A DNA stretch of 64,000 nt, taken from Isoetes taiwanensis. Taxonomy: Eukaryota > Streptophyta > Lycopodiopsida > Isoetales > Isoetaceae. Each line of letters begins with the position of its first letter. Position 1 is the first letter of the stretch. The notes below the pieces were generated by a model. It saw only the letters and a list, made by a program, of their open reading frames with translations, ran no database searches and was not told where the DNA came from. This document shows positions 13,090-33,395 of this stretch, piece by piece. The position numbers and the translations under genes were made by a program. The stretch lies in assembly GCA_021234155.1 (NCBI GenBank), contig JAJEKV010000010.1:7412871-7476870 (forward strand). The letters run 5' to 3'.

Positions 13090-13508
13090 CAGGTTTGACA
13101 TTCTTGAGGGATCTCCATCGACTTAAAATATGTTAGTAGAATGGACATGGTACCTTTCTTATTGCTTTGGGATGGAGCAAACAAAGCTTGGCTCAAGTCA
13201 ACATTGAAGTTGCATGTAAATGCACTACAAGTATGCAATTTTTAACTTGCTTACATTATGAAATGCTTGATGGTCAGATTGCCAAATGTTGCCATTGCTC
13301 ACTCATTTCTCGGTCCTCGCCGATTGAAGAAATGAGGTGCAACCTCAGTTAGCCATGAACGATCAATTGTAGAGACATCTTTCATGTAGTAACAGTGACC
13401 TGTAAAAATAACAGACTGAAACACAAGCCATTTTGGAGTTGCTCTAAATAAAACTGATGATGGGTGAATGAGTAACTCCTGATTCCCACCATGAACAACT
13501 TTGTAGGA
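13090..13508 (-). pseudogene. DEAH-box helicase (DHX35/DEAH9 type), C-terminal piece, left part of split copy
   Basis: The minus strand encodes the end of a DEAH RNA helicase: a segment with LLIHPSSVLFRATPKWLVFQ and, further on, RSWLTEVAPHFF, typical of the C-terminal OB-fold region of DHX35/DEAH9 spliceosomal helicases. Bases 13090-13508 align almost base for base to 31333-31748. Homology stops abruptly at 13508, where the terminal inverted repeat of the large element begins. It resumes at 30596 on the other side. The piece is therefore the downstream part of a helicase copy split by the insertion. It has no N-terminus and cannot make a helicase. Confidence 0.85.
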
Positions 13509-13530
13509 GGGTAAAAGCACGCTATGGTGT
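13509..13530 (+). repeat. Left terminal inverted repeat of the 17-kb element
   Basis: Begins GGGTAAAAGCACGCTATGGT. The reverse complement of the right end is identical except for G at the A in GCTATGG. A weaker shared motif (ACYTTTGTGGTA) sits about 40-50 bases further in at both ends. Confidence 0.85.
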
Positions 13531-14847
13531 TCCAATTCGGCTGTCCCCCCTGTCCCCCACTTTTGTGGTATGAAAGTATAATTATGGCACCGCTCAGCTG
13601 CCGGTATTTAAGAATAGAGTCCCGCTCAGCTGTGGGGGAAATTCTAATTTCAAAAACTAAAATTCAAATTCAAATTCCTATTCTTTGGCCCCTTCCTGTT
13701 CTTTGCCTACGTCCTGCTCTTTGGCTCCCTCCCTGCTGCGAGCTCCAATCCATTGTGGAATTATGGATGTCAATGAGGTAATCTGTACACAAACTGGCAT
13801 TTCAGACAGGAGAAAGCGAAGAAGAACGAAGGAACAAGAAATGTTGAAGAAAAGACGCCAGAGGAAAAGACGAAGAGAAGAAAAATTGGAGCTTGCAGAA
13901 TTGGCAGAAGGATCCGGTTCATCAAGAAGTGCAAGCGAAGAACGCCAGTATTGTCCTTAATTTGCTAACGTCTTTCCATAAAACGGACCAAAAGAATGGA
14001 GGATAGCACGAAGAAAGAAATTTTACTTGATTTTTGAGGGATAAAACATTGGAAAAATTCATAGGTGAAGAATTAAAGGATTTGGAAGCCAAGAGCATCA
14101 TTATAAGGAGCCTCACGGGACTCCATGCGACGGTATCAAACTCTCTACCAGCAATGACCGCCTAGCGACCAAAAAATAGTCTGCCTTTGCAATATGCAGA
14201 CCACGCCGCATTCTGAAACAAGTGACAAAATCAGCCAACCGAGATCTTGGAAAGGTATTAGGTGTTCACCCAAGAAACCCGCAAAAAGGCAAAGAAAAAA
14301 AGAGGGAAGAGATCGATTACAATGGTGGGAAATGAGTTTCTTACAAGAGGGCTAAAAGATTCGATGCAATTTCAGATGAACATATAGAAAAGATTCAAAA
14401 ATTTTGGATTGAGAACACCAGAGTGTCTCCTAACACAAAGGATGTTAGGACTAGAAGATTGGAGAGAAATGTAAGAGAAGAACATGCTGCCCACTATCTG
14501 GAGGAATCACATGTTAGTTTATTTCTGTTATTCATGTTTTCTTAGTTATGGTGCTTAGTGTGGTGGTGCATGTGGTGGTTGTGTTTGTACGATGATTGTG
14601 GTGTCTTGTATGCGACATGTGAATTGTGTTAGTTGACTCTAGTCTGAAATGCAATATTTAATGTTTGGAATATTATTAGAACATGACAGAATTGAGTACT
14701 CCTTTACTGGGTGTGTGTACAGTCTAAAAATATTTGAGCTATAACTAACTGATCCTGAGATACAAATTTTTGTTGAATAAAGACAATTTTTTGTTAGATT
14801 CAAGCACAGCTCTGTTGGAAAGTATGATATATTACATGCATGATTTC

Positions 14848-15430
14848 CTAAGCAACATGAAATGCTGGTATGACTGGCTCGAGAACTGGTGCATCCAAAA
14901 TTATTGTTTTCTGCACTAAAGCATTTAAGCTTTCTGCAGTCATCCCAGAATTTAATAGGATGAGGTTTGCCAGTGCTTCCTGCAGCCCCCGGTGGTAAGT
15001 CGCGCAGTTCGCCAAATAAAACCCGGCCGCTGCTGCGAGTCGAGAGGACAAGTGACGAGAAACAAATATACCAAATGCCCTTTGCGGCGACATGTAACAT
15101 AAGCTGATGGACCTTGTCTAAGAGCTCTCTTCCTGTCAATCTGACTCCAAGCATAGCCATTGAAGGCCCAGCATCCAGTTTGTTGTATGCCTTTAGGTTG
15201 GATTCGAAATCAGCAAAGAAGGTGGATTCAGGCATATCCACCTTCAGAGATTGATCGCGAGCCCTGTTTAACATGTGCCGAATGCCCTCCTCGGTCACCC
15301 TACAATAGTCGTAGTGATCTCTGAACATGGATCCTACCATGTTGCCGAATGAACTTGTTCGAATTGGCTTAATTGGGAATGAAACGCCAAAAATCGAGGC
15401 GTAGGAACGAGGATTTAGGACCCGGACCCT
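14848..15430 (-). pseudogene. Unidentified gene fragment inside the transposase intron
   Basis: On the minus strand an open frame begins at about 15430 (RSYASIFGVSFPIKP), passes MVGSMFRDHYDYCRVTEEGI (ATG at 15340) and LTGRELLDKVHQLMLHVAAK, then breaks near 15075 by a one-base shift. It continues in another frame as RHLSSRLAAAAGFYLANCAT and DAPVLEPVIPAF to a stop at 14848. Codon use and composition look like a real gene. There is no intron in about 580 bases, which fits a processed copy, but no poly-A tail is visible. I do not recognise the family. It lies opposite to and inside the intron of the transposase gene, so it is a later insertion or captured cargo. Confidence 0.5.
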
Positions 15431-15540
15431 TTTCTAATGATTAGAAGAGGAATGTAATTATTATCGGGGTGTCACAATTTCAAGAAGTGTTTATGAGAGC
15501 AAAGGCTAGGCAGATTTTTATGTCGGGCGAAATAGGATAA

Positions 15541-16290
15541 AAAGTGATGTGATGTGATGTGTGGTGTCGTGATAATGTAATGTGGTGTGGTGTGGTGTGG
15601 TGTGGTGTGGTGTGGTGTGGTGTGGTGTGGTGTGGTGTGGTGTGGTGTGGGTGTGTGCATGTTAATGTATGATATGTGTGGATTCAATTTTATTTATTCT
15701 CCTTCCTCACCCCACCACACCCCATCTATCCCACCACCATAGACTACCACCACATTTTTTAGACCACCACATTACCACCACCACATGCACACACATCCCA
15801 CCACATCCCACGCCACACCCCTCCACCACCACCACCACACCACCACCACCACACTCCACCACCACCACACCACACCACAATCCACAACACCACACCACAC
15901 CACACACCACCACACCACACCACACCACACCACACCACACCACCACCACTACACCCCCCCACCACTCCCATCACCACCACACACCACCACGACCACCACA
16001 CCCCACCACCACACTCCACCACACCATCATAGCACCACACACCACTACACACACCACCACCCCCCACCACCACACCACACACCACTCCACCACCACCACC
16101 ACCACCACCACCCCCCCCACCACGCCCCACACTCCACCACCACCCCCCACCACCACACACCACTCCACCACCCCCCACCACCACCACCCCCCCACCACCA
16201 CACTCCACCACCACCACACTCCACCATTTGGTGTATGGTGTGTGGTGAATGGTGTGGTGTGTGGTGGGGTGTGGTGTGGTGTGTGGTAAT
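15541..16290. repeat. GT-rich/CA-rich array (TGGTG)n and (CACCAC)n
   Basis: Plus strand: TGTGG pentamers at about 15580-15650, then CCACCA/CCACAC-type sequence from about 15705 to 16224, then TGGTGTG-type sequence to about 16290. The strand switch twice within the array makes long potential hairpins. Long open frames of His/Pro/Thr or Val/Trp/Gly here are by-products of the repeat. The array sits in the intron of the transposase gene, ending about 110 bases before its long exon. Confidence 0.95.
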
Positions 16291-18319
16291 GTACACAGCA
16301 CTAAGGTGCTCGCTTAAGTGAATATGATGAGTGTGGGGCATGGTATGGTGCATGGTTTGGTGTGGTATACACATCCTAACAGTTTAGTGTTCATTTCATG
16401 CAGATGCTATTGTTCAAGAGGTTTCTGGACCAACATCCAGAAATTAAGATTCGTCTTCGAGCTTTTGAGAAGCTAAAACCCTGGTTTGTTGTGAAAGTGA
16501 AGGACTTCAATAGTTGCTGTTGCATTCAGCACGTGAGGATGCAAATGCTAGTGGATGGACTCAATGGGATGAGAACCAGACATCCGAAGAATTGCACTTG
16601 CACCTGCGATGTTTGTAGATCACATGAACTTGGTCAATGCAGGGCACACCAGCATAAAATTGCAAGTACAGGAATCTTGTGGAGATCTATATTGTGTCCA
16701 AAGAGTGAATTAGATGAGTTTCACAAGAAGGCGTGCATCCTTGGAAATTGTGAGCTGTGGAAAATCAAGAAGTTTCAGACCTGTCCCATGGAAGGAAGTG
16801 GTAGTAGGAAAGTGAAATGGGAGTACATTGACTATGAAAAAGACAAGGTCTCGAGTTCTGGTAGGAGACTGACTCATCAGTACAATGAGACAGAACCCAA
16901 GGAGCTTCTGGATAAACTGAAAGAGCGTCTAAAAATCTTTCCACTGTATAATTTCAGGTACCAATGGCAGGCAAAACAGTTTAAGGAGCTTCTGGAGAAT
17001 CTCCCAGCAGATGCATGTCTCTCGGTAGTGGATTTTGCAGAGAACTATACATTCAAGGAACAAGAGGAGGTGCAGTCGATGCGCTGGGTCAATAACCAGA
17101 TTACCATTTTGGTTCAAATAACATATCAGTATGACTCAGTGGCAGATGAGATTATCAAGGAAACACATTACTATGTATCAGATGATAGGGAACACGATAC
17201 TTTGTTCGTGCAACACTACTTCATGAAGCACCACAAATATCTGGAGCAGAAAGGAAGGGTTCCAAAGAGACATTATGTGTTTTCAGATGGTGCAGCATCT
17301 CAATTCAAGGCTTCTAGACCATTTTACTTTGTGGCTAGGTACACAAACGACTCTTATGTCTATATGATGTGGAATTTTTTTGGTTCTAACCACGGGAAAG
17401 GTGAACACGATGGCAAAGCTGCTGAGTTGAAGAGATGGTTAAGACAACTGTAATTAAAATACAGCAGCATAAAATTGGGTAATGCTCATGAAGTGGTAGA
17501 AGTTGCCGAAGAGATGTTTACTTGTGGAACATCCGAGTGGATGAACACATCTGAAACCAGTAAGAGGAAGAATATAAAAAGGTTCTTTTGGGAAGTCAAG
17601 GTGGAGGATATAGATAGAAAGAAAGCATGGGGTGCAGAAAGGATTTTGGACACTAGGCAGATCCATTGTGTACATGCATTCAATCCTAAATCTCCATTGC
17701 AGGTTGCACTGCGAGGGAACTTTAATGCTTCGCAGCCTTGCTTGGATGGCATGTGGGACGGTTATTGTGAACAAGCACTACGTTGATGATTGGAAACTTC
17801 AAGTTATTGTACCATCCTCCAATGTGCATCTTTGACATTGAGGACCGTAAAAATCCAAAGAGTCCTTGTTCTCCTCAATCACACGATGTTAGCAGAGGCA
17901 CTTAGAGTTGGTGATAATTTTGTTGTCGTTGCTCCGAAAGGGAATGATGAGGGTTCTAAATTTTGGATTCTGATGTGCACAAAACTAAAATGGATAGTGG
18001 AGAAAGACTTCCAACTCAATGGAACATGGTATCTTGCCGGTGATAGTGTCATAGAAGGTATGTATTACAAGAAGGGCGCAAGATCAACCGTCAGCTATGA
18101 TCTTTGCAGTAAAGACGTCTTAGGCATAGTATTCACAACACAGATCTGTGCAATCAGACTTCACATGCCACCAACTAAACGTCAAAACAGGACTGTATAT
18201 AGGCTGGATCCTTTAGATGAGAAAATTTTATAGAATTTACCTGAAGTTCTTTCTGATGATGATGAAATGTAAAACCATTCTGTAGTTTTCAGAACTGCTT
18301 CAGCTGTGAAAATGAGTTT

Positions 18320-18710
18320 TTTTTTTTTTTGAAGGATAAAGAATTTTCCATTTATAGGTAAACTATTACACAGCCTTATAGCAGATAGACACCCTCCTGA
18401 ACAAGTTTGAAGAGGGGATAGCTACAAAGCCCTTTTTGACTGCATGTAGATGCCTTCTTCTTAAGGTGGTAGTTTGATGAAGGTCTCCCAAACAAGGGAA
18501 ACATCATCTTCGACCACACACTTGAACTTTCTAAGCTTCTCTATGAGCGTGTGCAGTATTTGTGTGGCTGTAGTATATGCTTCTTTGCCTAGAGTGAACG
18601 AATTGCGCCTTTTCCATATGACCCATAATGCCCATGATCTGACAATATGAAAAGCTTTGCATTTTGAGACTGGCCATTCTACTGGATATCTACCTAGAAT
18701 GGAGATCGTT
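18320..18710 (-). mobile_element. 5'-truncated LINE 3' end with poly-A and 17-bp target duplication
   Basis: The minus strand encodes the C-terminal tail of a LINE reverse transcriptase (FHIVRSWALWVIWKRRNSF, residues typical of the zf-RVT end) between about 18700 and 18470. A poly-T run at 18317-18330 is the poly-A tail read from the other strand. The element is flanked by the perfect 17-bp direct repeat GCTGTGAAAATGAGTTT at 18303-18319 and 18711-18727, a typical target-site duplication. Confidence 0.85.
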
Positions 18711-18882
18711 GCTGTGAAAATGAGTTTGTCTTGATTTCTTTTGAAGATTTGAATTCTTCTGAAACACTTGATTCCTTTGTTTGTGAGATGAATTGAATAC
18801 GAATTTTCATTGAAATGAATTGAGGTTACAATAACAATTATGTACATAAGAAAGATATACAGTGATTTAAGTACGAGGTGAC

Positions 18883-19248
18883 TCATGCACCTACATACTT
18901 CCCAATACATATGTTCCTCTCAGTTCCAGCTTTTGTTGCTTCTAATCTTAAAACTTCAAGCATGAACACTCTAACATCAACTAGATCCTGGTCTGAAATG
19001 TCCACAACCTGCAGTTGACCACACTTTGTCAATAACAGAGTTTGGTTTGTCTGCTGCATTTAAGTTGACTTACTAGATCAGGCAACAATATATTCACTCC
19101 TTTTAAGTACCCCCTCACAGATTTGTGCATAAACGAACATACGGCAGGGCCACATGAATGACCATCGGTTTGAAGAGGCGTTCTGGAAATTTTCACAACA
19201 TCTGAGGTTGTAAAGCTGAAATTATTGTGTCCAAGCAATTCCAGGAAC
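18883..19248 (-). CDS. Ulp1-type (C48) cysteine protease, C-terminal two exons
   Basis: Exon 19248-19074 encodes TPLQTDGHSCGPAVCSFM, the Gln...Asp..(Ser)Cys-Gly signature of the C48/Ulp1 family with the catalytic Cys. Donor CTA|GTAAGT is at 19074/19073. Exon 19008-18883 follows in phase 0 (VVDISDQDLVDVRVFMLEVL) and ends at TGA 18885-18883. The acceptor of the first exon (GCAG|GTTCC) implies further exons upstream, where the catalytic His and Asp should lie, but I could not place them. The piece seen is undamaged. Plant Ulp1 domains of this kind are often carried by DNA transposons, which fits its position inside the 17-kb element just upstream of the LINE insertion. Confidence 0.6.
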
Positions 19249-19945
19249 CTGCACTCAAAGTTTGTTGTCATTGTGCCACAACAGCAAAATGCAATGAGCA
19301 AGCACTAACCTCTCAATATGTGCATACGCCATGCAAGCCCGAAGCTATCAAAGTGATATATCCCCGGTTTATATCTCAGGCGAGACACGCGCGTTTACCA
19401 TCATCGAAAAAGTCCAGTGATGTCCATCACAAGCAGGCAAAAACATGTACTGGCACTTATCCACTTATTCAGATTCACATGTTTCCTTATTGTTTTGTAA
19501 CTATTTGTGTCCTTGGACAATGTCGAGTGAAAAAGAGGGTCAAAGAAATGAAAGGGATGGCTCATTCCTTGGAGAATCAAGTAGTATTCCATGTATCTAA
19601 AAACATATGCATATCATCTGGCACAATCTTGATGATCACAAATCAGATGAAAGTATCACCTTGAGAAGAGGAAGATCAATTGATCATTGAACCACTCACA
19701 GATCGGCTTCCAAAATTTTGATGTCTGGTGGAGCTAATCACGACGTTTCAGTTCCACTCAAAGACCACTTCGGATGTGTATTTGGCTTTAGATAGTCGGG
19801 GGGGCTGCCGGCTCTATCATCTCTAGTTCTAAACACACACGAAACATTTGCTCACAATCCATTCAAATATTTTAAATTGAAAAAGTACAACACATATCAT
19901 AGAAATTTTTTTACTTTTATTGACTTTCAAAGAGTTTTACAAGAT

Positions 19946-21056
19946 TCATTTATGAAAATACTTGTCGAGCATTTTCATGCAGTTGCGCGACTCTTCAGAA
20001 TCCCACATGTTCCATATTTGATGTTCCTTCACATAAGCCGGCACACTTTTCTCGCAGCCGAAAGTCCTCCAAATACCATGGTTTGAGTTGCTCCAAAAGG
20101 AAATTGGAATCCAACCGAGCAAAACTATTTGGACATATCATTGTGTTCTACCGGGTTGGCGTAACCCTTATATCTGCTGTCATCTATCAACAATGTGTTT
20201 GTCACCTGGTATCTCCAAAATTTATGGTACACTTTGGACAGATCCTTAAGGAAAAATGGCTTATTAACCACCTTTAATTTTGTGTTGGTGCAGTCATCCT
20301 GATTCCAAATAAAAACAAATCTGCCCTTATATTCCTGCAGCAACTTTCTCATCAACAATTCAACATTACTCTTAGCCATGCTGATTCTAAGAACTCCTGT
20401 AATCCAGGCCTGGAAACTGCAAACTTTTGATGGTTCAATTTATGGATGGTCACTTCTGGCTCGGCCGATGCAGGGATCCTCTCTTTCAAGTCATAAAACT
20501 TGCCTAAAACCCCATTAAAATCCAGAACAAGGAGAATTTCAGTTAACCTCTTGGTTTTTCTTGGTTGAGGTTGTATTGGACTCGTTGAGCAGTCTGCATC
20601 TTGTCCAGGATCCGGGGTTTCTTTGTCAACTTCATCACCTGCATCCGCATTTGGCTCATATTCAGCACCAAAACTTTTTTCTGGTGAAGGACCCCGTACA
20701 GAATGAATCTCAAGGGAATTAATTTTCCCCCCTGAATCAGATGCACTAGGAATCTCTTCGCCATGGCTTCCAGTTGCAGTAGCATTTATCTCTGCAACAT
20801 AATTGAAATGAGGAAGACCACAGAAAAATACAAAAAAATAAATCATGTATGTGGCATCGGTACTTACTTGATACGACTGCATTCAGTTGACTATCCAAAT
20901 TTCGTTTTGGAGTCTCCACGCCGTCAGCAGCTGGGATTGACTTAGGAGTATCAAATGGGGTGAATTCTAGGTACAACCGGGAGGTATCTTGCAGTCTCAT
21001 AACTGATCGAGGCGTGGATAACTGTTGGATATCCTTGGTCTCAAATTTCTGCAATT
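19946..21056 (-). pseudogene. HAD-type NIF/FCP1-like (TIM50-like) phosphatase domain gene, damaged
   Basis: Plant proteins of this group carry an NLI-interacting-factor/HAD phosphatase domain. Exon 21056-20868 (acceptor TTTGCAG, donor CAA|GTAAGT) and an exon from 20791 are spliced, so this is not a processed copy. Motif I reads ILLVLDFNGVLGKFYD: the first Asp is present but the second Asp of DxD is Asn, as in many plant members. Around 20390 the frame shifts and about ten residues with the usual VGIWSS segment are missing. The next frame has VFIWNQDDCTNTK and TNTLLIDDSRYKGYANP (motif III/IV region). A further +1 shift near 20058 precedes the C-terminus, which has VPAYVKEHQIWNMWD and a TGA at 19948-19946. 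Three lesions and the missing motif make it a pseudogene. Confidence 0.75.
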
Positions 21057-21221
21057 CTGCAAACACTAAGTCAGTAGACCTGTGACAACATCAGTAAACA
21101 TTAGTTAAGGCACTTGTTTGCAGCGAATCTATATTGTTTGCAGCGAACAATATCAAGCCTGGTGAGTTGACAACCATTCAAGAGGGTCACGCACCAGGCT
21201 TTTTACTCTCTTTTCGATGTT

Positions 21222-21302
21222 CCTGTTTATATATATCTAAAGTGCCCCCTAAAATGAGCGAGCGATCTCATCCCAGGGGGCACTTTAGATACAATAAACA
21301 GG
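21222..21302. repeat. 81-nt long hairpin, copy 1
   Basis: Arms CCTGTTTAT...CTAAAGTGCCCCCT and AGGGGGCACTTTAG...ATAAACAGG pair over about 28 bases around a 23-nt loop beginning AAAATGAGCGAGCGA. It is homologous to the hairpin at 21570-21650. Confidence 0.85.
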
Positions 21303-21361
21303 ACAAGCAAAAGAGACTAAGCTAGCCAGGATGGAAGAGACTAAGCCAGGATGAAAGAGAC

Positions 21362-21733
21362 CTGAGTACAAGCATCGAGACTTCCCAAACCTTGCTTTCA
21401 CCCCTCTTTGGACAATGGAACTTAGCATGTAAACTAAGCTACATTGGCCAAAGAGGAGGTCAAAGAAAGATTGGGAAGTCTCGATGCCTGTACTCAGCAA
21501 TTACTAACATCCAATTAACCCACAGATTGCTATCTTGTTTTATGTCGGGCTTACTTCCTTTTCGAGTTTCCTGCTTGATGTATCTAATTCGCCACCTAAA
21601 ATGAGTGAGCGACCTCATCCTAGGGGGGCAAATTAGATACATCAAACAGGACAAATGAAAGAGACTAAGCCAGGGTTAGTAAACCTGAGTACAAGCATTG
21701 AGACTTCCCAAACCTTGCTTTCACCCCTCTTTG
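21362..21733. repeat. 50-bp motif in direct and inverted copies around the hairpins
   Basis: The segment CTGAGTACAAGCATCGAGAC... occurs at about 21362-21411, inverted at about 21447-21496, and direct again at about 21685-21733. The arrangement around the two hairpins suggests a fold-back element duplicated once. Confidence 0.75.
21570..21650. repeat. 81-nt long hairpin, copy 2
   Basis: Same length as copy 1, with arms CCTGCTTGATGTATCTAATT and AATTAGATACATCAAACAGG. The arm sequences differ between copies but pairing is kept and the loop (AAAATGAGTGAGCGA) is nearly identical. Flanking sequence is also duplicated with a 348-bp offset. Confidence 0.85.
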
Positions 21734-22241
21734 AACTTACTTGTGTCTATTGGTTCTTGTGGTACCACTCGAACACCAAAAGCCAAGAGCCATGTCTCAG
21801 TCATAATGTGGGCACAACTGGGGCTGCAGCAGGTTCTAGAGTGTCTGCAAAACAAATTCAAAATCAATAGAGTCTTTAGACGAAGGTTAGAGATGATAAT
21901 ATTTACCTCAAATGGTGTGATAGACATGGAATGTGATACTGGTGACTGCATTCTGCTATCACAACTGGCAACATTTTACCCTCCCATTTCAGACAACGTC
22001 CACAAAATGGACAACCTTCATCACCCTCTTCTTCTGCCTCAGGAAGCATTGGAAGTGCAGGATCTAAAGGAGTGTCATGACCACTACGCTAAAAAAAAAT
22101 CTCAAATCTTTGCATTCGAGGTAGGCGGCTCCAAGTGATAAGTCTTCACATGCCTTTAGCTCAATTTCGGTTTACATTAATTCCTTATTTAATTGTTTCA
22201 GCCCGGCAACACTTTGTACCATTTAGCTCTTCATCCTTTAG

Positions 22242-22478
22242 TTAAACACAACCCAACACCCTCTGCTTTTCGGATTTGTTTGTCATGATTGATTGCCATC
22301 CGTGCCAAATCAGCTCTAATTTCGATGTTTTATGCTCCATCAACTCAATCTTTCTTTTGATATCATTTTTCCTATCCTCGTGTGCTTGCAATCGTTGCTT
22401 GCATCTATCAAACCTAGCTGATGTTGCAGCCAACCATTCCTTCACAAGTCCGCCATAGTCCCGCAAAAAATAAAACAC
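22242..22478 (-). CDS. Possible exon, charged coiled-coil segment
   Basis: An open stretch of about 75 codons reads as a charged helix (RFDRCKQRLQAHEDRKNDIK, then IELMEHKTSKLEL). There is no family match that I recognise and no clear start. It may be an exon of an element-borne gene. Confidence 0.2.
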   Translation of the reverse strand: MFYFLRDYGGLVKEWLAATSARFDRCKQRLQAHEDRKNDIKRKIELMEHKTSKLELIWHGWQSIMTNKSEKQRVLGCV

Positions 22479-22499
22479 TACGTATATGTCAGCCTCCTA

Positions 22500-22815
22500 A
22501 CATAGTAAGCCACGTACTGATGGAAAACCACAATCACACACCACACAACACAAGGTAGTCTCTACACACCACCACATACCACACACCACACAACATACGC
22601 TGCACAGTACACACCACACAACACGCTGTGGTGGTGGTGGTGATGTGTGTGGTGGTGGTGGGGGTGGTGGTGGTGGTGGTGTGTGTGGGTGGTGGGGTGT
22701 GGTGGTGGGGTTTGGTGGTGGTGGTGGTGGGGTGTGTGGTGGTGGAGTGTGGTGTGGGACATGGTGGAGTGTGGTGATGGGGTGTGGTGGTGGGGTGTGG
22801 TGTGGGAGTGCGAAT
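22500..22815. repeat. CA-rich then GT-rich array, second in the 17-kb element
   Basis: ACACCACACAAC-type sequence at about 22530-22625 switches to GTGGTGGTGG-type sequence to 22808. A motif GTGTGGGACATGGTGGAGT is shared with the array at 29.3 kb, and the edge TTTTTGGAGGGTTTTT recurs in reverse complement beside that array. Confidence 0.9.
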
Positions 22816-23210
22816 TTTTGGAGGGTTTTTCTGGGAAGGGTTTAGAGGGTTTATTAGATTGTGTCTTCTTTTTTTTTTTAATTTTGTCAATGGTTCTGAG
22901 GTATAGAAGATGCACTTATAGACTACATATTATAATAAATATAACTACACCAAAGTAGTATATTATCCATACCATTATACTAAATACACCATACTCTTTA
23001 CTATGTTATGTCCATATGTAGCATAATAACAGGGGGTTACTTTTAGATTTTTATACGCTTTTTCACATGGTTTTTCTATGATTTCGTTGTTGTATTCGTT
23101 GAGGTGTACTAAATAGTATTTCTAGAGTGCACCTTTTATGGGCCGTTGATTTTCGTTGGTTGGAAACAATCCGGGGTTGTTGTCTTTCTCTGCATGTGTT
23201 TGTGCATGAA

Positions 23211-23325
23211 CACTACACATGTGTATGCATGTGCATGTGCACATGCATGTGCATGTGTGTGCATGTGTATTGTGCATGTGCAAGTGCAAGTGCATGTCCA
23301 TGTGTGCATGTGTGTGCATGTGTAG
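23211..23325. repeat. TGCATG/TGTGCA alternating purine-pyrimidine tract
   Basis: About 115 bases composed almost only of CATGTG and GCATGT units, the kind of alternating sequence able to adopt Z-DNA. The open frames here are by-products of the repeat. Confidence 0.85.
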
Positions 23326-23748
23326 AACCATAAGGTGAATCATGCATTACCTTTAAGCTAGAGATGGAGCATTCAAAATCATATGGATTGATAAACAATG
23401 GTGTCATTGTGAAAGAGAAATAGTTGTAGCGGAAGTAACAATATGTAGCATAATAATAGGGGTTTTTTTTTGTGTTGCAAATTTTATGACTTTCAGAATA
23501 ATGGGATCAATCTGCTCTATTTTTATGGTAACTTTTACTTATGTTCTATCGTGTTCTATTTGTTTTATTGTCATCAAATTCAAAAGCTGCAGGTGATGAA
23601 AGCCTCAAATGAATTCTAGTTTTTTTCTGGTTTGAATTCTAAAATTTTTGTCACACGGGGGGGACGTCTCTAAGGCCCCGAAGGGGCAAACAAATTTTTT
23701 TTGCAACACAAACCATTAACATCCAACATGTAAAAATTAAATCCCCCA

Positions 23749-24245
23749 ACACATAACAATCATTGACATTAACAACCAACACATAACTACCATTGACATT
23801 AATTAACACAACCATTGAGTCCAACACATTTAAATTAAAATCCCCCTTAAACCCCCTTTGGTTTGGGTGCATATTCACACGGGGGGTGACTCCGGGCAAC
23901 GAGAGCTGTTGGATAGGCATATTCACCCCTTATTCCTTAATCTATACCGTACGTAAAGTTCCTCGTTTGTGGGGTATGCAAGTACAAAATTTGCTATACT
24001 GTATAACAAGATTCACAAAATACTATAAGATTTCAAGCGGAATACTATATGATGTTGTTTTCGTATGTGCAAAATACAATTATGAGGGCTCTCGCTGCCC
24101 TACGTCACCCCCCGTGTGAATATGCACCCAAACCAAAGGGGGTTTAAGGGGGATTTTAATTTAAATGTGTTGGACCCAATGGTTGTGTTAATTAATGTCA
24201 ATGGTAGTTATGTGTTGGTTGTTAATGTCAATGATTGTTATGTGT
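23749..24245. repeat. Inverted repeat with 142-bp arms and 213-bp loop
   Basis: Arms 23749-23890 and 24104-24245 are reverse complements with about one mismatch (GAGTCC versus GACCC region). The inner ends read CACACGGGGGGTGAC and GTCACCCCCCGTGTG. The 213-bp interior has no coding capacity. It looks like a young fold-back element or an inverted duplication. Confidence 0.9.
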
Positions 24246-24747
24246 CCATACATCATACTGCCCTTACTATTATAATAAATATAATTGCCTTAGTGTTCAT
24301 ACTGTTATTATCATATCCACAGTATAGGCATAGAAAAAGCGAGCATTGTAAAGCAAATTGTTTGAAGTAAACAACGGAAGCCATCACTTGGTTTGTCTTT
24401 CTCTGACATTGGACTTTCGATATCTTTGGTCATTGTTGATTCAGTTAACGCTTTGTCAAGGGCTATAGATTTTGCTTCTTCTTAGGATACCTCTAGTGAA
24501 TATGAATGCTTCTGTCGCCTTCGCTTTGGTGGTGTGTACGCTAGAGGAACAAATGGGATGGGAGTTTTGTTTCTAGTGTGAACCATAACAGACCATGTCC
24601 CTATTCTACACAACACCTAAAGTGATCAATAAATATAAAATGAATGCAATGAACCTTTTTATCTTACTAGAGATATCTTACTCACATATCTCCCACGTTA
24701 GTTCTTATTGTCTTGTAGTATTTTGTTAATTCAGATGATCATTGCAG

Positions 24748-24989
24748 CAAGTTGGCGGCGAAGGAAGAGAAGAAGGTTCTGTCAGTTTTGATGATGAAAT
24801 AAGATCTGTGTATTGCCCTGAAAGTAGGCATAGGCAGCCATTTGTGAAATTCCCAACTAATGTTGGATCAAGGATACAAAATCGCGTTTTAATAGCCATT
24901 GATTTGGATCCGCTAGGATGGCAAAGGAGTTTTTGGAATGGTCAATCCAGAAAGATGTGTATAAGAATAATTCAACCGGGCAAACTAAG
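24748..24989 (+). CDS. Possible exon of an RRP44/DIS3-like ribonuclease
   Basis: The exon-like stretch lies between a good acceptor (CATTGCAG) and donor (AAG|GTATTT) and is open throughout. It contains YCPESRHRQPFVKFPTNVGS and QNRVLIAIDLDPLGW, which resembles the DRRIPKI...RIIVAIDSW region of the second cold-shock domain of DIS3/RRP44 exosome nucleases. Neighbouring exons were not found, so this is probably a captured or decayed exon. The match is from memory of the motif and is weak. Confidence 0.3.
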
Positions 24990-26838
24990 GTATTTCATGT
25001 AGTATAGTCGGGTTATGTTATGTCTTCTATGGATGAGTATTTTAGCAAAGTGCAAAAATAAGTAAGCACATTGTGTTATTCTTTCTGCACTTATTTTTGC
25101 ATATGTAAGAAGAACCAACATGGGTGTCTTCATACCATGCGCAATATTGAAGTGGATTATATAGACGAATTTTTTGTGAACAACTCGTGGTTTTTATGGG
25201 CTACAAATTTGTCCATATTTTGTTTTGTTTCGCCTTTCTTTTCTTGGATATAACGCATATTGTAAGCCATACATGGCATGGTGTACATAAATTCAACATA
25301 GTTGTTCAATCTAACTGTATTTTTTATATCTCCTACACATTAGGCTTGCTCCAGTACTGTATATAGACCATCTATGTTGTTGTCTTCCAACAATGACATG
25401 CCGTAAATACAAGTTGCATAGTTGATCCTTGAAAGTATCTTGTGAATATGATATGGCAACCTAGATGGAGAATTAGAGGTGTGGTTCCGAAGTAACCTTC
25501 CAAGATTTGCTGTCACGTTCATGCCCTTTTTCGAAATGAGCTATTAACATAATTCCCAAGAATATAGCACAAAGATGAGCGTGGTAATGATCATATGCAA
25601 CTGTGCATCATGCACTTATTATTCATCACAATTTGGGTCATCTCTCAAAGTATCCTAGGTAAAGGAATCGTAATAACTGGTATATGAATGAAGCCTTCAT
25701 AATGGTTGCTGGCAATACAGTAGACTACAAAGAACACCTAATTACAACTTGATAATGGAGTAGTACACTGCTCAGAATCAATCAAAATGGGGGAAGCACA
25801 TTGTCTTTGCTTCAATCTCTCCTTAATAAGTTACTCCTGTTAATAGGCACATACTTTCAAGACACTGAAAACTGTGACCTTATCTGGCTATACTTCACAT
25901 AGATTAACTTCAAAACATTCCAGTGGCAGGAAACATTACGCGTAATGGGCATCATTGAATTCCATTACACTATGCTCTGGCTTGGAAATCCATTAAAACC
26001 CTTGCATGACCCTCTAACTTTGCAAATTTCACATAAGCACATTTCATTGTCTTACCTGCTCCATCTCATTAAAATGCTATCCAGTTCAAGATTTGATATA
26101 CATAACAACCACTGCAATACTGGTATTGATCAAGTGACAGTGAAGAACAGTCACAACGGCTCGGAGTAGCTTGTTCATTTTCTGACCAACGAGCTTGCTG
26201 TTACAAAAAATGGGTGCAAAAGTGACATGCCCCTCATCCTTTGCCGGTATGTCTTGTTAGGGACAGTTTTTTTATTCTTTCTGTATTTCATCTAGAAGAG
26301 GCAGGACATTTTGCCTTCACTGCTATGAGCTGCATTGACCAGAAAGGACATATACACATATAGCACTGATATGGCATTTACACCAGACTTCTTACTATTG
26401 AGATATGTGAGAACACCACATTTGGCTGGACATTCACTGCGAATCTGAAAAGCCTGTTATGTCTTTGCTGGATATGGGGAGATGGAATGCCCCTGTGCTA
26501 ACCCAACCTTGGCTAAATATGTGGACAATAAAATTGGACATAGTACATAACCGCACCTTAAGAAAATGGCTAAGCCTTGGACTTAACCATATCCCTTTGT
26601 GAAGTTCAAGAGTGAACTGCACCAAACTATTGATCAGTTCTTTGGCTTACACAGACATGGCAACCATATAATAAGACATGGCAACCATAATACAGACATG
26701 GCACTAGGCATATAATAAGGCATCGTATAAGCTGATTATTAAATCCAGAGGTATGAAAGGCTTGAGCAGCTTACATAAACAGAATTTGATAACGTAGATA
26801 TCAAGATGTGAATCAGATAGCTTACCTTAATCTAAGAG
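24990..26838. other. No gene recognised
   Basis: Only short open frames. A three-copy repeat of AGACATGGCAACCATA lies at about 26651-26710. The AT-rich flanks of the mini-exon array begin after about 26740. Confidence 0.5.
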
Positions 26839-27512
26839 GTGCGCCGCCGCACTAGGTCAACAGTCTGTTGCCATGACTTCAAAATTTGTCTTCTGCCATC
26901 AGATTCTGAGCAGCAAATTGTCCCACTTGTTTTGAAACAGCGACAGATAAACATATTATCTTCAGTATTCACATTTCAACCGATTCAAGTAATAAATTTC
27001 AGTTAAAAAACATGGAATACTATGGAATACTATGGTCTGGGCTGGGTCAGATAAATTAACATCTGAGCTCTTATAATCTGAGCTCTTATAATCTGAGCGT
27101 TACAACAGACTAAAGATCTGCAGTTTGCCTACCATCCCAGAGGTGGTGCGCCGCCGCGTGGTGCATTAAAACAAAAAAAAATCCAACCATTCTTACCTTT
27201 CTGGAGGATGTGCGCCGCCGCACTGGGTCGGATTGAAGCTGGAGCAAGGATTTAGATATGAATACAACTGAAAATAGTCATGGTAAATCTCTCAGAAATT
27301 TGCCCTCACAAATCACAGACATGTGTTTTTCCAAAACAGATATTACCTTACTGAATGGAGTGCGCCGCCGCACTGGGTCGGATTGAAGCAGTAGCAAGGG
27401 TTAAGATTACAATGCAGCTGGAAAAAATCATGGAAAACATCGTGGAAATCATGGAAATCATGCAGCTTATTCAAATCGAGCCTACCTTGCTAGATGGAGT
27501 GCGCCGCCGCAC
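26839..27512 (-). repeat. Five-unit array of mini-exon-like sequences
   Basis: GTGCGCCGCCGCAC (or one close variant) occurs at 26839, 27146, 27210, 27360 and 27499. On the minus strand each unit reads GTGCGGCGGCGCAC and, 15-19 bases later, a splice-donor-like (A/T)G|GTARG. Two units share 23 more bases upstream (starting CTTCAATCCGACCCA). Read in one frame the units encode variants of PVRRRTxxSK. One unit has an in-frame TAG. GTGCG and CGCAC can pair as a small stem. The units are 64-307 bases apart with unrelated AT-rich spacers. Confidence 0.7.
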
Positions 27513-27539
27513 CGGTTCTACAATGGGCAGACAAATTTC

Positions 27540-28026
27540 CAAGAACAGATGATTTTCGGAGAGGTATTTTGAAAAAACAGAGGTACAGAGATATTTTTCG
27601 AGGTACAGAGGTATGTTTCGAGGTTTTTTTCGAAAATTAACTTTAAAAAAACAATAGAGGTTAAAAAAGCATTAATTCCCATACAGGTTTCACAAATAAC
27701 AAAAATTTATTTTTTCAAAAGCAAAAGAGATTGCAAAGCCATTATTCAAATTCTTGCTTCTCTTATACATTATTTTTTAACGCCTACATTTTCACACGCC
27801 CTAAAGTATTTAAACGTTTTAAACCGGCTGAAATTATTGCATTTTGTAATTAGCATACGAAATTGTTGGCGTGCAATTCATTAATTATGAATATTCGTGA
27901 CAGTAATTAATTATTTTGAGGACCTCAATTGATTGTTCAACGTCGTCAAATTAGCTATTCTAGTTTTAGTAGTCTAGTTTCCTGCGGAAGAGTTGTCTGT
28001 GTAGCACGAAGTTATTTGTTGTTGCA
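27540..28026. other. AT-rich spacer, possible promoter of the next gene
   Basis: Strongly AT-rich, with short repeats of GAGGTACAGAGRTATKTTTCG at about 27560-27630. No gene. Confidence 0.4.
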
Positions 28027-29123
28027 ATGGCTGCAAACGACTGTGAGATTCTTTCTTTCACTGCAAATGACGTGATAATCTCATCACCTGGTAAAACATT
28101 GAGAATGGTATGCTCTTTTGTGAATGGAGAATGTCAACTGTCTAGGAAATGGTTGTGTGAGAGTTTTCAATTTCGTAATGAAAAATTGTGTGTTGTGCAA
28201 TCTAAGAGTGGTAGAGGAATGACAATTCTTCTTGACGAAGTTGTGAATCAAGAGGGGCAGAGTGTGTATGTGGCCCTAGCCTGTAATGGGAACTTTGTCA
28301 CAGTCGAAGGCACGCCTATTATTCTTGAGGTCAGCACTCCTCATGCACCAATAATTGTTGACAGTCCGATCCAGCATATTCGTGAGAGTACTATAAACAT
28401 TGTTTCCACGTTTCAAACACTTGTTGATAGTTTTGGATCTAGCAAACTTAAGAAATTGTTTTGGAACTCGTCAATCGAATGCGTCCAGGAGGAGATTTAG
28501 AAAACTCTTGGGTACATTTTGACCACGTAAAATGCACTGTTGGGTGGACTACTTTAGCATGTCATGTGTATGACCCAAGGTGATATTTTTATCTATCATG
28601 TTTTTCACTTGCCATTTCAAAGTATTTATTTACTTACTGTAATTTCTGAAATGTACAGTATGCGTTGCCTTCTTACAATAGCAACATGTGACATGAAAAC
28701 GGAGGATATGGAAGCTCAGATAAAGTTCTGGACAAAGCTAAACAAAGTTATGATACTAAAGAACTCACCACCTGCTCAGTTCAAAGGATTCATGGCAGAC
28801 GAAGCTCAGGCTAATTGGAATGCAATTCGGGCAACGCAGTCAACTCGGCAGTTTTACATAGTGGTTTAAGGCCCATTCATGCAGGTTCAGGAGGAAACAA
28901 TCAGACTGTGCCAAAAAGGACCAGAGATAGCACGGAGTATAACAAGGATGTGGGTTCCGGTAGCCATCGTCCAGAAAAGACGGCCCATACTCGGTCTAGA
29001 GTTAGGGTAGATGCTTCAGCAAAGCGGAATATAATCTTTGATGATGCTACATACCTTGTACAGAAGTATGATTTGCTGCCAGGGGAATGGGCTATTAGAA
29101 GAACAGAGCCTGGTAGTACATAG
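28027..29123 (+). pseudogene. Second transposase-like gene, three exon-like pieces, decayed
   Basis: An intact 157-codon frame starts at ATG 28027 (MAANDCEILSFTANDVIISS) and ends at TAG 28498-28500. After a gap with stops, a frame from about 28640 encodes LTIATCDMKTEDMEAQIKFW and FKGFMADEAQANWNAIR, motifs I know from transposase-like proteins of mosses, liverworts and ferns. A third frame (28815-29123) follows, with VPKRTRDSTEYNKDVGSG and FDDATYLVQKYDLLPGEW. The frames do not join without breaks, so I call it a pseudogene. The first frame alone could still make a small protein. Superfamily unknown. Confidence 0.5.
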
Positions 29124-29222
29124 CGAGTGGTGCGACATGCCACAATAGAATATTCCAAAGAATATTCTCCCATGGAACCCTCCAAGCCATCTCAAAAAAA
29201 ACCCTCCAAATAAAATTCCCCT

Positions 29223-29470
29223 GGTGTGGTGGTGGTGGGGTGTGGTGTGGTTGTGGTGGAGTGTGGTGGTGGTGGATTGTGGTGTGGGACATGGTGGAGT
29301 CTGGTGGTGTGGTGTGGTGGTGGTGGAGGAGTGTGGTGGTGGTGGAGGAGTGTGGTGGTGGTGGTGGTGGTGTGGTGGTGGTGTGTGGTGTGGGAGTGTG
29401 GCGGTGGGAGATGGTAGAGTGTAGTGGTGGGAGATCGTGGGGTGTGGTGTGGGACATGGTGGATGCCAAC
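29223..29470. repeat. GT-rich array, third in the 17-kb element
   Basis: GTGGTGGTGG/GTGTGG-type sequence, sharing GTGTGGGACATGGTGGAGT with the array at 22.7 kb. The left edge has AAAAACCCTCCAAAT, the reverse complement of the right edge of that array. Confidence 0.9.
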
Positions 29471-29699
29471 AACTCACCACCACCACACATACCTCATCTA
29501 TCATTCTGGCATCCATTGCACGAAATGCCCCACAGATGGCATCATAGAGACACAACATGACAATACAGCCAACATGATGCAAAATGGTAGTAGACATACC
29601 TGATTCTTGAAGTGGATTTGATGTTACCTTTTCTGTGTTGATAGAAACAATCTAGATCAAGTTTGAGATTTTTTTCTGTTGTAACACAACTAATAATTG

Positions 29700-30278
29700 A
29701 ACATACCTGCAATGGCATGTTTTGGTCTCAGAACATTGCTCTGCTTTTCTGTTTTGATTGTGAGTTCAGATTGAATGTGTGGTCTAGAGGAACCTGATTT
29801 GGTTTTTTTCCTATCATCTTCATCATCCCCATCACTTTTACTATTTTCCTCCTCGTCAGGTTGGATTTGCCTATGCTATCTCTTGGGTCTAGAAGAACTG
29901 GCCTCTGCTTTCTCATCGGGAGTTTTATAATAATCCGAGAAGCTCTTCCAATTAACAGCCTCCCCCTTTATATGCAGATAATAAGCCACTGCCCAGGTTC
30001 CAGGAGCCATTCCACCCCATGTATGTGGCTTCCCCTCGTAATTCATTTGTAAATTTGCATGAACTCTTTGTATTGTTCATTGCTCGATTCTTCAACCCTG
30101 TACAAGAAAACATATGCCTTAATTTTTCGGTTTGAACAAAACATTTGGGGAAAAATACAGTAGCCGATTTATTTGGAACTCTGTCACCCCAAAGCTTCTT
30201 TAGATCTTCGTGGGGCACAATCTCTTGTTTGAGGAGAGATTTCATCGTGTAACCAGTGGCGTTCAATTCTGACTCCAT
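29700..30278 (-). CDS. Unidentified spliced gene at the right end of the 17-kb element
   Basis: Starts at ATG 30278 (MESELNATGYTMKSLLKQEI, then LKKLWGDRVPNKSATVFF) about 300 bases inside the right terminal repeat. A second open piece follows (HTWGGMAPGTWAVAYYLHIK, AVNWKSFSDYYKTPDEKAEA) and ends in an acidic, Lys-rich tail. The pieces need an intron at about 30090-30150 and one frame change near 30050, so the gene may be damaged. No family recognised. Its position, transcribed inward from the right end opposite the transposase, suggests an element-encoded accessory protein. Confidence 0.4.
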
Positions 30279-30281
30279 TAG

Positions 30282-30413
30282 GGTTCAATCGGCAAGAAGC
30301 GGCAAAAACACAGAGAAGAGGTGATGGTTCAATCGGCAAGAAGCGGAAAAAAAACAGAGAAGAGGTGATGGTTCAATCGGCAAGAAGCGGCAAAAAAACA
30401 GAGAAAAAGGTGA
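30282..30413. repeat. 44-bp unit repeated three times
   Basis: GGTTCAATCGGCAAGAAGCG... starts at 30282, 30326 and 30370, with only small A-run differences. It lies immediately upstream of the minus-strand ATG at 30278, i.e. in its leader or promoter. Confidence 0.9.
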
Positions 30414-30573
30414 TTCTTTCCTAATTCAAAAAGGTGGACAATGACGTGGCATAAAATTCAAAATAACCGACGCTCATTAATTCGCACTCCCGCAATCTCC
30501 GCTTCGGTATGCACCACCCGATTCTACCACAAAGGTGGTGCCAAAATGTGGCGTCAAAATGCACGTTTTTGAT

Positions 30574-30595
30574 ACACCACAGCGTGCTTTTACCC
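30574..30595 (-). repeat. Right terminal inverted repeat of the 17-kb element
   Basis: Plus strand ends ...ACAGCGTGCTTTTACCC at 30595, followed by AGGA (30596-30599), the duplicate of 13505-13508. Confidence 0.85.
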
Positions 30596-31332
30596 AGGAT
30601 TTCCCATCTGCCTGCAGTTGGCTAGCATTCATAAAGAACGCTGAAGCTACAGCTTTCCTGACTCTTTCAATATCTTTGTCACATGATCTCATGTTCATGC
30701 CAAGACGTTGTAAAACCTTTGCTAGCTGGGCTCTTACATCTAGAACTTTCTTCATGGACTGATAATTAATGCAGTTCTGATGACACCATTGTGATGATTT
30801 GTTAGAAGAAATAAAGGCTTCATACACATTAAGGTAGCTGATGAGATCACCTTCAGATGCAGAAAAACGGCTCCTTGCCTCATCAAGCTCCCTTTGCCTT
30901 CCAAATACGATATCCAGATTGATTGGACAGACATCATTGCTGCAATAATGACTACCTCAGATGAGCAACCAAGTGGTCCTGAAGACAATAGCATCTTGGA
31001 AACTTTTGGGTCAAGTGGAATTTCTGCAATTTGATGACCTAGCGGAGATGTCAATTTAGCATCTAAGTCGAGGACTCCAAGGGCATAAAGATGTTCCAAA
31101 GGTTTCATCATTGTCTCTGCTGTTGGAGGAGCAAGCCAGTTAAAAGTCATTATGTTATCTATCCCTAAAGCTTTTAGTTGTAACACATTGAAAGCAAGTT
31201 CTGATCTCTGCATCTCTGAAATACTTTCAGCCTCCATGTCCTTGACATAAGTTTCCTCTGTGTAGAGCCTAAATCATTTTCCAGGACGTATTCTTCCAGC
31301 TCTCCCAGCTCTTTGTTGTGCTGATGCTCTTG
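30596..31332 (-). pseudogene. DEAH-box helicase piece, right part of the split copy
   Basis: The minus strand encodes the region after the RecA2 domain of a DHX35/DEAH9-type helicase: ALGIDNIMTFNWLAPPTAET, EHLYALGVLDLDAKLTSPLG, then NVYEAFISSNKSSQWCHQN and SCDKDIERVRKAVASAF. The segment aligns to 31749-32488 and continues exactly where the left piece (13508) stops. Several frame breaks, e.g. near 30905, show decay. Confidence 0.85.
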
Positions 31333-33395
31333 AGCAGGTTTGACATTCTTGAGGGATTCTCCATCAACTTAAAATATGTTAGTAGAATGGACATGGTAGC
31401 CTTTCTTATTACTTTGGGATGGAGCAAACAAAGCTTGGCTCAAGTCAACATTGAAGTTGCATGTAAATGCACTGCAAGTATGCAATTTTTAACTTGCTTG
31501 CATTATGAAATGCTTGATGGTCAGAAGTGTTGCCATTGTTCACTCATTTCTCGGTCCTCGCCGATTGAAGAAATGAGGTGCAACCTCAGTTAGCCATGAA
31601 CGATCAATTGTAGAGACATCTTTCATGTAGTAACAGTGACCTGTAAAAATAACAGACTGAAACACAAGCCATTTTAGAGTTGCTCTAAATAAAACTGATG
31701 ATGGATGAATGAGTAACTCCTGATTCCCACCACGAACAACTTTGTAGGATTTCCCATCTGCCTGCAGTTGGCTAGCATTTATAAAGAGCGCTGAAGCTAC
31801 AGCTTTCCTGACTCTTTCAATATCTTTGTCACATGATCTCATGTTCATGCCAAGACATTGTAAAAACTTTGCTAGCTGGGCTCTTACATCTAGAACTTTC
31901 CCCATGGACTGATAATTAATGCAGTTCTAATGCACCATTGTGATGATTTGTTAGAAGAAATAAAGGCTTCATACACATTAAGGTAGCTGATGAGATCACC
32001 TTCAGATGCAGAAAAATGGCTCCTTGCCTCATCAAGCTCCCTTTGCCTTCCAAATAGCTTGATATCCGTGATTGATTGGACGGACATCATTGCTGCAATA
32101 ATGACTACCTCGGATGAGCAACCAAGTGGTCCCGAAGACAATAGCATCTTGGAAACTTTTGGGTCAAGTGGAATTTCGCAATTTGATGACCTAGTGGAGA
32201 TGTCAATTTAGCATCTAAGTCGAGGGACTCAAGGGCATAAAGATGTTCCAAAGATTTCATCATTGTCTCTGGCTGGAGGGGGAGAAAGCCGCTTAAAAGT
32301 CATTATGTTATCTATCCCTAAAGCTTCTAGTTGTAACACATTGGAAGCAAGTTCTCGATCTCGTGATCTCGAATACTTTCGGGCTCCATGTCCTTGACAT
32401 AAGTTTCCTCTGTGTAGAGCCTAAATCATTTTCCGGGGCGTGTTCTTCCAGCTCTCCCAGTTCTTTATTGTGCCGATGCTCTTGAGATAGGCTATCACCA
32501 CCGCTTCTACATCGGTGGAAGGGTTATAAAAACGCCGCTTCGAAACCACCGTCAACAACATAAGCTATTCCCTCTCATTTATTACGATGTTTTACGCTAT
32601 GTTTGTGCATACAATGACTTTCCTTTTCCCTCTTGGTGCCGGATTGAAGACAAGTTCCCGATCGAACGTGGTAACCCGGCATAAAGCGGTAGGGCAAGTA
32701 GCCCTAACTTACTACCTTCTTCGTTAATCAATTGAACGACAAGATCAACATCTTCTTGACTGTCATAAAACCAAAACATCTCACGAAGGCTCGCTTTGTG
32801 GATTGAAATTGTGTAGAAACTGCTGATCTAATGTAGTCGATCACGTGTTCTTTAACATCTTGTATCTCACTCAACACTAAATGTCCGACCTTCTCTTTGA
32901 AACTATTACGGGTCTAGGGTCCGGCAGCTCACTCAATTCTCCGATCGTGGCTTTCTCCGGCTCATGTCAAAAAAAATGCAATTGACTTGGCTTGCATTGT
33001 TGCCGAAGCAATGATAAGGCGCAACTCTGGTCTCTTCCTTTGAATCTTTTTCAGCAAACCTAAAACCATATCTGTTGCTTTGCTTCTCTCATGAGCTTCA
33101 TCTACCATAATGACACTATACTTGGACAATAAGGGATCCTCCATCATCTCCCTCAGTAAGACACCATCAGTCAAATATTTAATTTTGGTTAAACCTGGAG
33201 TCACAACTTCTTCAAAACGTATTGAATAACCAACTTCAGCCCCTATTCTGACATTCATTTCTTCTGCTACTTACTCTAGCTGAAACTGTCTGAACATCAA
33301 TTCTTCTCGGTTGCGTACAAGCTATTGTATAACCACCATCTGCCCAACCTGCTTCACATAGATATTGAGGAATTAAACAAGGATCTATTAAACGG
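31333..33395 (-). pseudogene. DEAH-box helicase (DHX35/DEAH9 type), uninterrupted but decayed copy
   Basis: Reading down the minus strand: GYTIACTQPRRIDVQTVSAR (motif Ia, about 33330), GAEVGYSIRFEEVVTPGL, motif II VDEAHERS (about 33105), motif III SATMQ (about 33000), RecA2 piece VQLINEEG with LPLYAGLPR (about 32700), winged-helix/ratchet region (32150-31890), and the C-terminal region ending RSWLTEVAPHFF (31560). Motif I (GKT) lies upstream and was not found. There are frameshifts at about 33260, 32780, 32480 and 32150, and a one-base change at 32185. Bases 31333-32488 duplicate the split copy, so a tandem duplication of about 1.16 kb came before the transposon insertion. Confidence 0.85.

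Follow-up and report, generated by a model that had tools for sequence, protein, structure and literature searches.

A 17-kb insertion in Isoetes taiwanensis, probably a member of a multi-copy family of large DNA transposons lengthened by nesting

An insertion with exact ends and an empty-site paralogue

We analyzed a stretch of 64,000 nucleotides (the window) from the quillwort Isoetes taiwanensis (contig JAJEKV010000010.1 of assembly GCA_021234155.1). Positions 13509-30595 are very probably occupied by a member of a family of large class II (DNA) transposons that exists in multiple copies. The element is an insertion of 17,087 bp, bounded at 13509 and 30595 by 22-bp terminal inverted repeats (TIRs) that differ only at position 16 (A/G). 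It is flanked by AGGA on both sides. Identity to a paralogue at 31335-32484 was 96.0% for the left flank (13090-13508; 421 aligned columns) and 94.1% for the right flank, which starts at 30596 (745 columns); the two alignments share 4 bp on the paralogue, which are the duplicated AGGA. Since the ends are exact, AGGA is duplicated and the flanks join on the paralogue, the insertion, its target-site duplication (TSD) and the empty-site paralogue are real. These ends and flank alignments confirm what a first-pass annotation, made from the letters of the window, had described at this site. Moreover, a 15-bp core of the ends occurred twice in the window (0.05 expected, up to 2 mismatches), both times at the element ends. 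The following features define the site.

13505-13508, no strand: TSD AGGA, left copy (alignment of flank and paralogue)
13509-13530, + strand: left 22-bp TIR (thousands of related ends genome-wide)
13562-13569, + strand: subterminal motif TTTGTGGT, a possible second binding site for the transposase (near both ends, inverted)
30526-30533, - strand: inverted partner of TTTGTGGT, near the right end
30574-30595, - strand: right 22-bp TIR (inverted match to the left end)
30596-30599, no strand: TSD AGGA, right copy (alignment of flank and paralogue)
31335-32484, no strand: uninterrupted tandem paralogue of the target, host helicase sequence outside the element (flank alignments, domains)

The termini of the element read GGGTAAAAGC (GGG...CCC), and an ordinary element of the family ends in GGGTAAAAGCACGCTGTGGTGT. 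Of the 16 family copies that were read from one end to the other, 12 carry the motif TTTGTGGT in inverted orientation close to each end; mapping in four copies placed it 53-76 bp inward of the left end and 62 bp inward of the right end, with one or two further occurrences per copy. The flanking pieces come from helicase sequence and show HA2 and OB-fold domains, as DEAH helicases do. This helicase fragment is duplicated in tandem (13090-13508 plus 30596-31332, and 31335-32484) with 94-96% identity between the copies, one of which carries the transposon.

Family copies across the genome

The genome searched was an assembly of 1,658,258,908 bases in 1,110 contigs. With up to 3 mismatches, the 21-bp end had 3,027 matches on one strand and 2,972 on the other, about 6,000 in all. 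These are numbers of ends rather than of elements, and related families may contribute to them. The reversed 21-bp pattern gave 17 and 9 matches. The first-pass annotation had proposed looking for paired ends elsewhere, and such pairs were found: among 100 perfect ends listed, with neighbors at up to 60 kb, 22 pairs faced each other, 3 pointed apart and 1 was in tandem. The facing pairs spanned 9,478-26,623 bp (9.5-26.6 kb), with 12 of the 22 at or below 11 kb and 6 above 15 kb. Because the listed ends were all perfect, these pairs sample the well-preserved copies. The copies read end to end are 16 of these, the window copy included; the spans of the others are 10.1, 10.6, 11.2, 12.5, 22.8 and 26.6 kb.

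A perfect 4-bp TSD, also anticipated in the first-pass annotation, flanked 15 of the 16 copies read (AAAA, TTAT, CATG, CAGT, AAAG, AAGA, AGAT, TACT, TTCA, CATG, AAGG, AAAT, CACT, AATC and AGGA), with no obvious common motif. The sixteenth, C208, had TGTT versus TATT, a single mismatch. Ten of the 16 copies measured 9,478-10,557 bp (9.5-10.6 kb) and aligned along the window copy with 83-93% identity (blocks above 1 kb), save for the additions to the window copy and short variable pieces. In a tree of both ends from the 16 copies, inner branches were mostly short and tips longer, a shape such as might be left after a burst of copying.

A predicted DDD transposase

The first-pass annotation had placed a transposase towards the left end, together with extra open reading frames (ORFs), and both were borne out by tblastn and the ORFs. 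The transposase features are listed here.

14387-14515, + strand: putative N-terminal transposase exon, in part aligned to the relative P0044 (tblastn)
16443-18242, + strand: transposase core and C-terminal part, broken (tblastn, one frame along residues 1-607 of P0001)
17031-17033, + strand: candidate catalytic D1, D212 of the 351-aa ORF (invariant among the compared sequences)
17286-17288, + strand: candidate catalytic D2, D297 of the 351-aa ORF (invariant among the compared sequences)
17409-17411, + strand: candidate catalytic D3, D338 of the 351-aa ORF (at least 90% conserved; invariant in a second comparison)

The ORF of copy C907b that is homologous to the 14387-14515 region matches residues 189-285 of P0044. 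The reading frame at 16443-18242 contains four in-frame stops, and comparisons were made with the open part at 16398-17450 (the 351-aa ORF). The element encodes a transposase of the three-aspartate (DDD) type, for which an RNase H fold is predicted; Argonautes outranked integrases in the structure search, and the fold thus supports RNase H only. One scan of genome contigs confirmed no bacterial relatives of the transposase, and one scan of viral contigs confirmed no viral relatives. No intact transposase was found in the 16 copies read, the gene being damaged or missing in each. The enzyme would therefore have come from another copy, or movement would have preceded the damage.

Selection was assessed from the ratio of nonsynonymous to synonymous substitution rates (dN/dS) in 14 copies; for each region, copies covering 60% or less of it were dropped, and the five other frames served as comparison. 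For the transposase core, the ratio was 0.51 versus 0.57-0.84 in the other frames (13 of the 14 copies), which weakly suggests past constraint. The C-terminal pieces of the transposase gave 0.79 (others, 0.37-0.88) and 0.81 (others, 0.54-0.79) in 12 and 11 of the 14 copies, respectively, and showed no constraint by this measure. With all 14 copies, a first N-terminal ORF showed no signal (0.86 versus 0.55-0.90), and a second fell weakly below the other frames (0.52 versus 0.60-0.99).

Relation to known transposons

According to the accessible part of PMC10741241, Sola elements have a DDD transposase, duplicate 4 bp of the target and carry TIRs of 11-1124 bp; most are 2-9 kb long and some exceed 15 kb, and they occur in a moss and are apparently uncommon in flowering plants. 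The family described here shares with them the DDD transposase and the 4-bp duplication (perfect in 15 of 16 copies, with one mismatch in the other), and its TIR length and size lie within the ranges given in that part of the source, the size at the long side. Duplication length, triad and size thus fit the description of the Sola superfamily. Unlike Sola, the family has an ordinary length of about 10 kb and extra phosphatase-like and antisense ORFs. The available portion of PMC3627910 reports AT-rich duplications for amoebal Sola2, whereas CACT, CAGT, TACT, AAGG and AGGA do not follow that rule, a difference that bears on Sola2 alone. The Sola superfamily is also reported to occur in bacteria, where the one scan of genome contigs confirmed no relative of the transposase.

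It is possible, if somewhat unlikely in our judgment, that the mechanism is the same and that the transposase comes from a non-Sola superfamily, described or not, that also duplicates 4 bp. Pfam gave no family at its cut-off for the window ORF or seven relatives, and none of the 53 relatives found in public data, one of them from a sea spider, is functionally named; these results speak for such an origin, as does the presence of CACT, CAGT and TACT among the duplications when compared with the AT-rich ones of amoebal Sola2 (PMC3627910, as far as available). The combination of 4-bp duplication, DDD triad, size and TIR length, all of which fit the Sola description in the accessible text of PMC10741241, argues against it.

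Other superfamilies were considered and rejected. Mutator (Mutator-like elements, MULEs) has 7-12-bp duplications, not 4-bp ones, and no MULE Pfam match was obtained at E 0.1 or better. For CACTA/EnSpm, the termini are GGGTAAAAGC and not CACTA/CACTG, the duplications are 4 bp and not 3 bp, and no CACTA transposase domain was found. hAT needs an 8-bp duplication, and the family has a 4-bp one. A Ginger element would fit with its 4-6-bp duplication, but the termini are GGG...CCC and not TG...CA, and there was no integrase-core Pfam match. Pack-MULE and CACTA elements resemble the family as large or gene-carrying plant TIR elements and differ from it in their duplications of 7-12 bp and 3 bp, respectively (PMC10741241, in the part available).

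Large size has precedents. The first-pass annotation had held 17 kb to be unusually large for a cut-and-paste element, yet this length lies within what is known of such elements: those of the plant CACTA type can exceed 20 kb (PMC10741241, available part), and Ectocarpus has elements above 10 kb. The latter, assigned to Sola-1, KDZ and EnSpm, carry nested insertions, additional genes and broken transposases, according to the accessible sections of PMC12477816. The family is like these giants, as described there, in exceeding 10 kb, in its nested unrelated elements and extra genes, and in an often broken transposase that implies movement in trans; it is unlike them in that the block nested in the window copy occurs in no other copy read. 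With the Ectocarpus precedents in print, the kind is already known. Titles and abstracts on Sola, on Isoetes transposons and on giant transposons included none that describes the family in a lycophyte, the subscription literature lying mostly outside this scope. As far as these searches show, this family of large DNA transposons is undescribed, though of a known kind.

Nested additions in the window copy and in other copies

The main addition to the window copy is a 6.4-kb block at 22806-29222, set in a GTGG-rich array that is unbroken in the ordinary copies. Sequences that vary between copies are as follows.

18335-18713, - strand: short insertion of 379 bp resembling a long interspersed nuclear element (LINE), recognized by eye and without Pfam match (not in the ten ordinary copies)
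21116-21734, no strand: minisatellite block of variable length among copies (alignment of copies)
22806-29222, no strand: 6.4-kb block inside the GTGG array (missing from the 15 other copies read)

Since the 15 other copies lack the block, and ten of them are 9.5-10.6 kb long, nesting in a 10-kb family member is the best explanation for the 17 kb of the window copy. We infer the order of events, with the block arriving as a separate event. Four ORFs from the block were without a Pfam match above the cut-off, and of 101 candidates compared with the ORF at 27973-28497 (175 aa), none was a relative at E 0.001. The edges of the block form an imperfect inverted repeat with a possible flanking 8-bp repeat, seen by eye; because these repeats lie in or beside simple repeats, they do not prove the class of the block.

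The other lengthened copies comprise four with different inserts and a fifth, C208, in which the ends surround an unrelated interior. The insert in C926 is a Copia long terminal repeat retrotransposon, with both an RVT_2 domain (E 7.6e-77) and direct terminal repeats of about 770 bp at 97.4% identity; its insertion point lies about 0.2 kb from that of the window block, in the same repeat-rich stretch. Other DNA amounts to about 11.9 kb in C919c and about 16.6 kb in C908c, and C346 holds an insert of 4.1 kb; all three are also without parts of the normal interior. In C208 (137533-149512), only about 0.9 kb of the family at the left and 1.1 kb at the right frame an unrelated sequence of 10 kb; the four ORFs tested had no Pfam domain, and this copy may be a non-autonomous derivative with a replaced interior. 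The longest copy read with unchanged ends measures 22.3 kb, and the longest by end spacing alone measures 26.6 kb.

These copies also bear on a reading in which all 17 kb are mobile by origin, with the 10-kb copies as deletion derivatives, or in which the block moved with the element after its entry. Although the whole stretch now lies between one pair of ends with AGGA, we consider this very improbable: with 16 of the 22 pairs read, the block was seen in none of the other 15 copies, the other lengthened copies hold different inserts, and resemblance to the block was limited to a dispersed repeat of 419-466 bp in C208 and C908c plus a 138-bp match in C208. The first-pass annotation had regarded the 17 kb as a single cargo unit whose interior moved as one, which, with the block absent from those 15 copies, is wrong or unproven. 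Its suggestion of an undescribed giant transposon survives as an undescribed multi-copy family and not as a one-off giant, the ordinary copies being 9.5-10.6 kb. That two unrelated solo ends face each other by chance around ordinary host DNA is hardly credible, for abundant as the ends are in the genome, the interior, leaving the additions aside, aligns with ten further complete copies, and both the join on the paralogue and the duplicated target fall exactly at these ends.

Several repeats were observed in addition. Long GTGG/CCAC arrays, variable among copies, lie at about 15666-16350 and about 22640-22800, the second hosting the 6.4-kb block. The minisatellite at 21116-21734 is present throughout in C612 and partly in C907a, C148 and C919a. 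Within the block, a palindrome (23749-23906 and 24088-24245) has 158-bp arms at 97% inverted identity; this palindromic repeat (23749-24245) is a dispersed repeat, with related sequence also in C208 and C908c. In the ordinary-length copy C919b (12464473-12475029), LINE-like sequence occupies about 1 kb close to the left end and includes a LINE-type zf-RVT ORF (E 5e-8).

Accessory ORFs

Apart from the transposase, four antisense regions were considered.

14642-15433, - strand: antisense ORF between the two transposase parts (no Pfam match; region covered in 12 of 14 copies)
19032-19304, - strand: ORF presumably resembling a C48/ULP1 peptidase motif (ULP-like)
20128-21090, - strand: pieces of an FCP1/NIF-like phosphatase ORF (NIF domain in the homologous C907b ORF)
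29955-30284, - strand: right-end antisense ORF without known domain (ORF list, Pfam)

The phosphatase-like ORF of C907b has a NIF domain at E 8.3e-14. The window holds it as the pieces 20128-20439, 20355-20882 and 20749-21090, of which the first and third were scanned alone and gave no Pfam hit. The phosphatase-like block, mapped approximately, was 93-100% covered in 13 of the 16 copies, 45% covered in one and absent from two. The ULP-like ORF had no Pfam hits and one stop altogether across 13 copies, and searches of PDB sequences found nothing for it or for the phosphatase-like ORF. By dN/dS, no signal of selection was seen for the phosphatase-like ORF (0.63 versus 0.59-0.97 in the other frames; 13 of 14 copies), the ULP-like ORF (0.43 versus 0.43-0.78; 13 copies) or the right-end ORF (0.60 versus 0.49-0.84; 14 copies); the antisense ORF at 14642-15433 was weakly below the other frames (0.66 versus 0.75-0.96; 12 copies). 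A selected gene is thus not proved by the copy data.

Other features of the window

An open gene for a 411-aa F-box/Kelch protein lies at 43381-44616 on the + strand (Kelch_1, E 2.1e-23). Fragments of retrotransposon reverse transcriptases (RVT_1; RT_RNaseH) are found on the - strand at 49563-50764 and 59441-60628.

Proposed mechanism and significance

An ordinary element, about 9.5-10.6 kb long, would combine a transposase gene in two parts on the + strand with several antisense ORFs, of which one is phosphatase-like. The DDD transposase would recognize the 22-bp ends and perhaps the TTTGTGGT motifs as well. The element would be excised and then pasted at a 4-bp staggered cut in the target, which would yield the 4-bp duplications. 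In the window, a copy would have inserted into one member of a tandem pair of helicase fragments, and the 6.4-kb block and the short LINE-like piece would have been added to this ordinary copy to give 17 kb. Broken copies would have been moved by transposase supplied in trans, or before they were damaged. The ends, the duplications and the triad were observed directly in the sequences, and the chemistry of the enzyme and its supply in trans are presumed. A further proposal, which we regard as doubtful, is that the transposase lineage forms its own group of 4-bp-duplicating DDD transposons and is, in quillworts, a large carrier, with a widely shared accessory block that includes a phosphatase-like gene, interior replacement (C208) and loads ranging up to at least 22 kb (26.6 kb by spacing) moved in trans.

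The site illustrates a general trap, in that an empty-site paralogue defines the sequence between two ends and not the unit of movement. The long copies (22.3 kb read, 26.6 kb by spacing) and the copy with a swapped interior bear on the size of the load that such ends can delimit. With this family, a lycophyte gains a well-delimited, multi-copy 10-kb DNA transposon family with exact ends and measured duplications; its transposase goes unrecognized by Pfam, so that such elements may stay unclassified in annotations.

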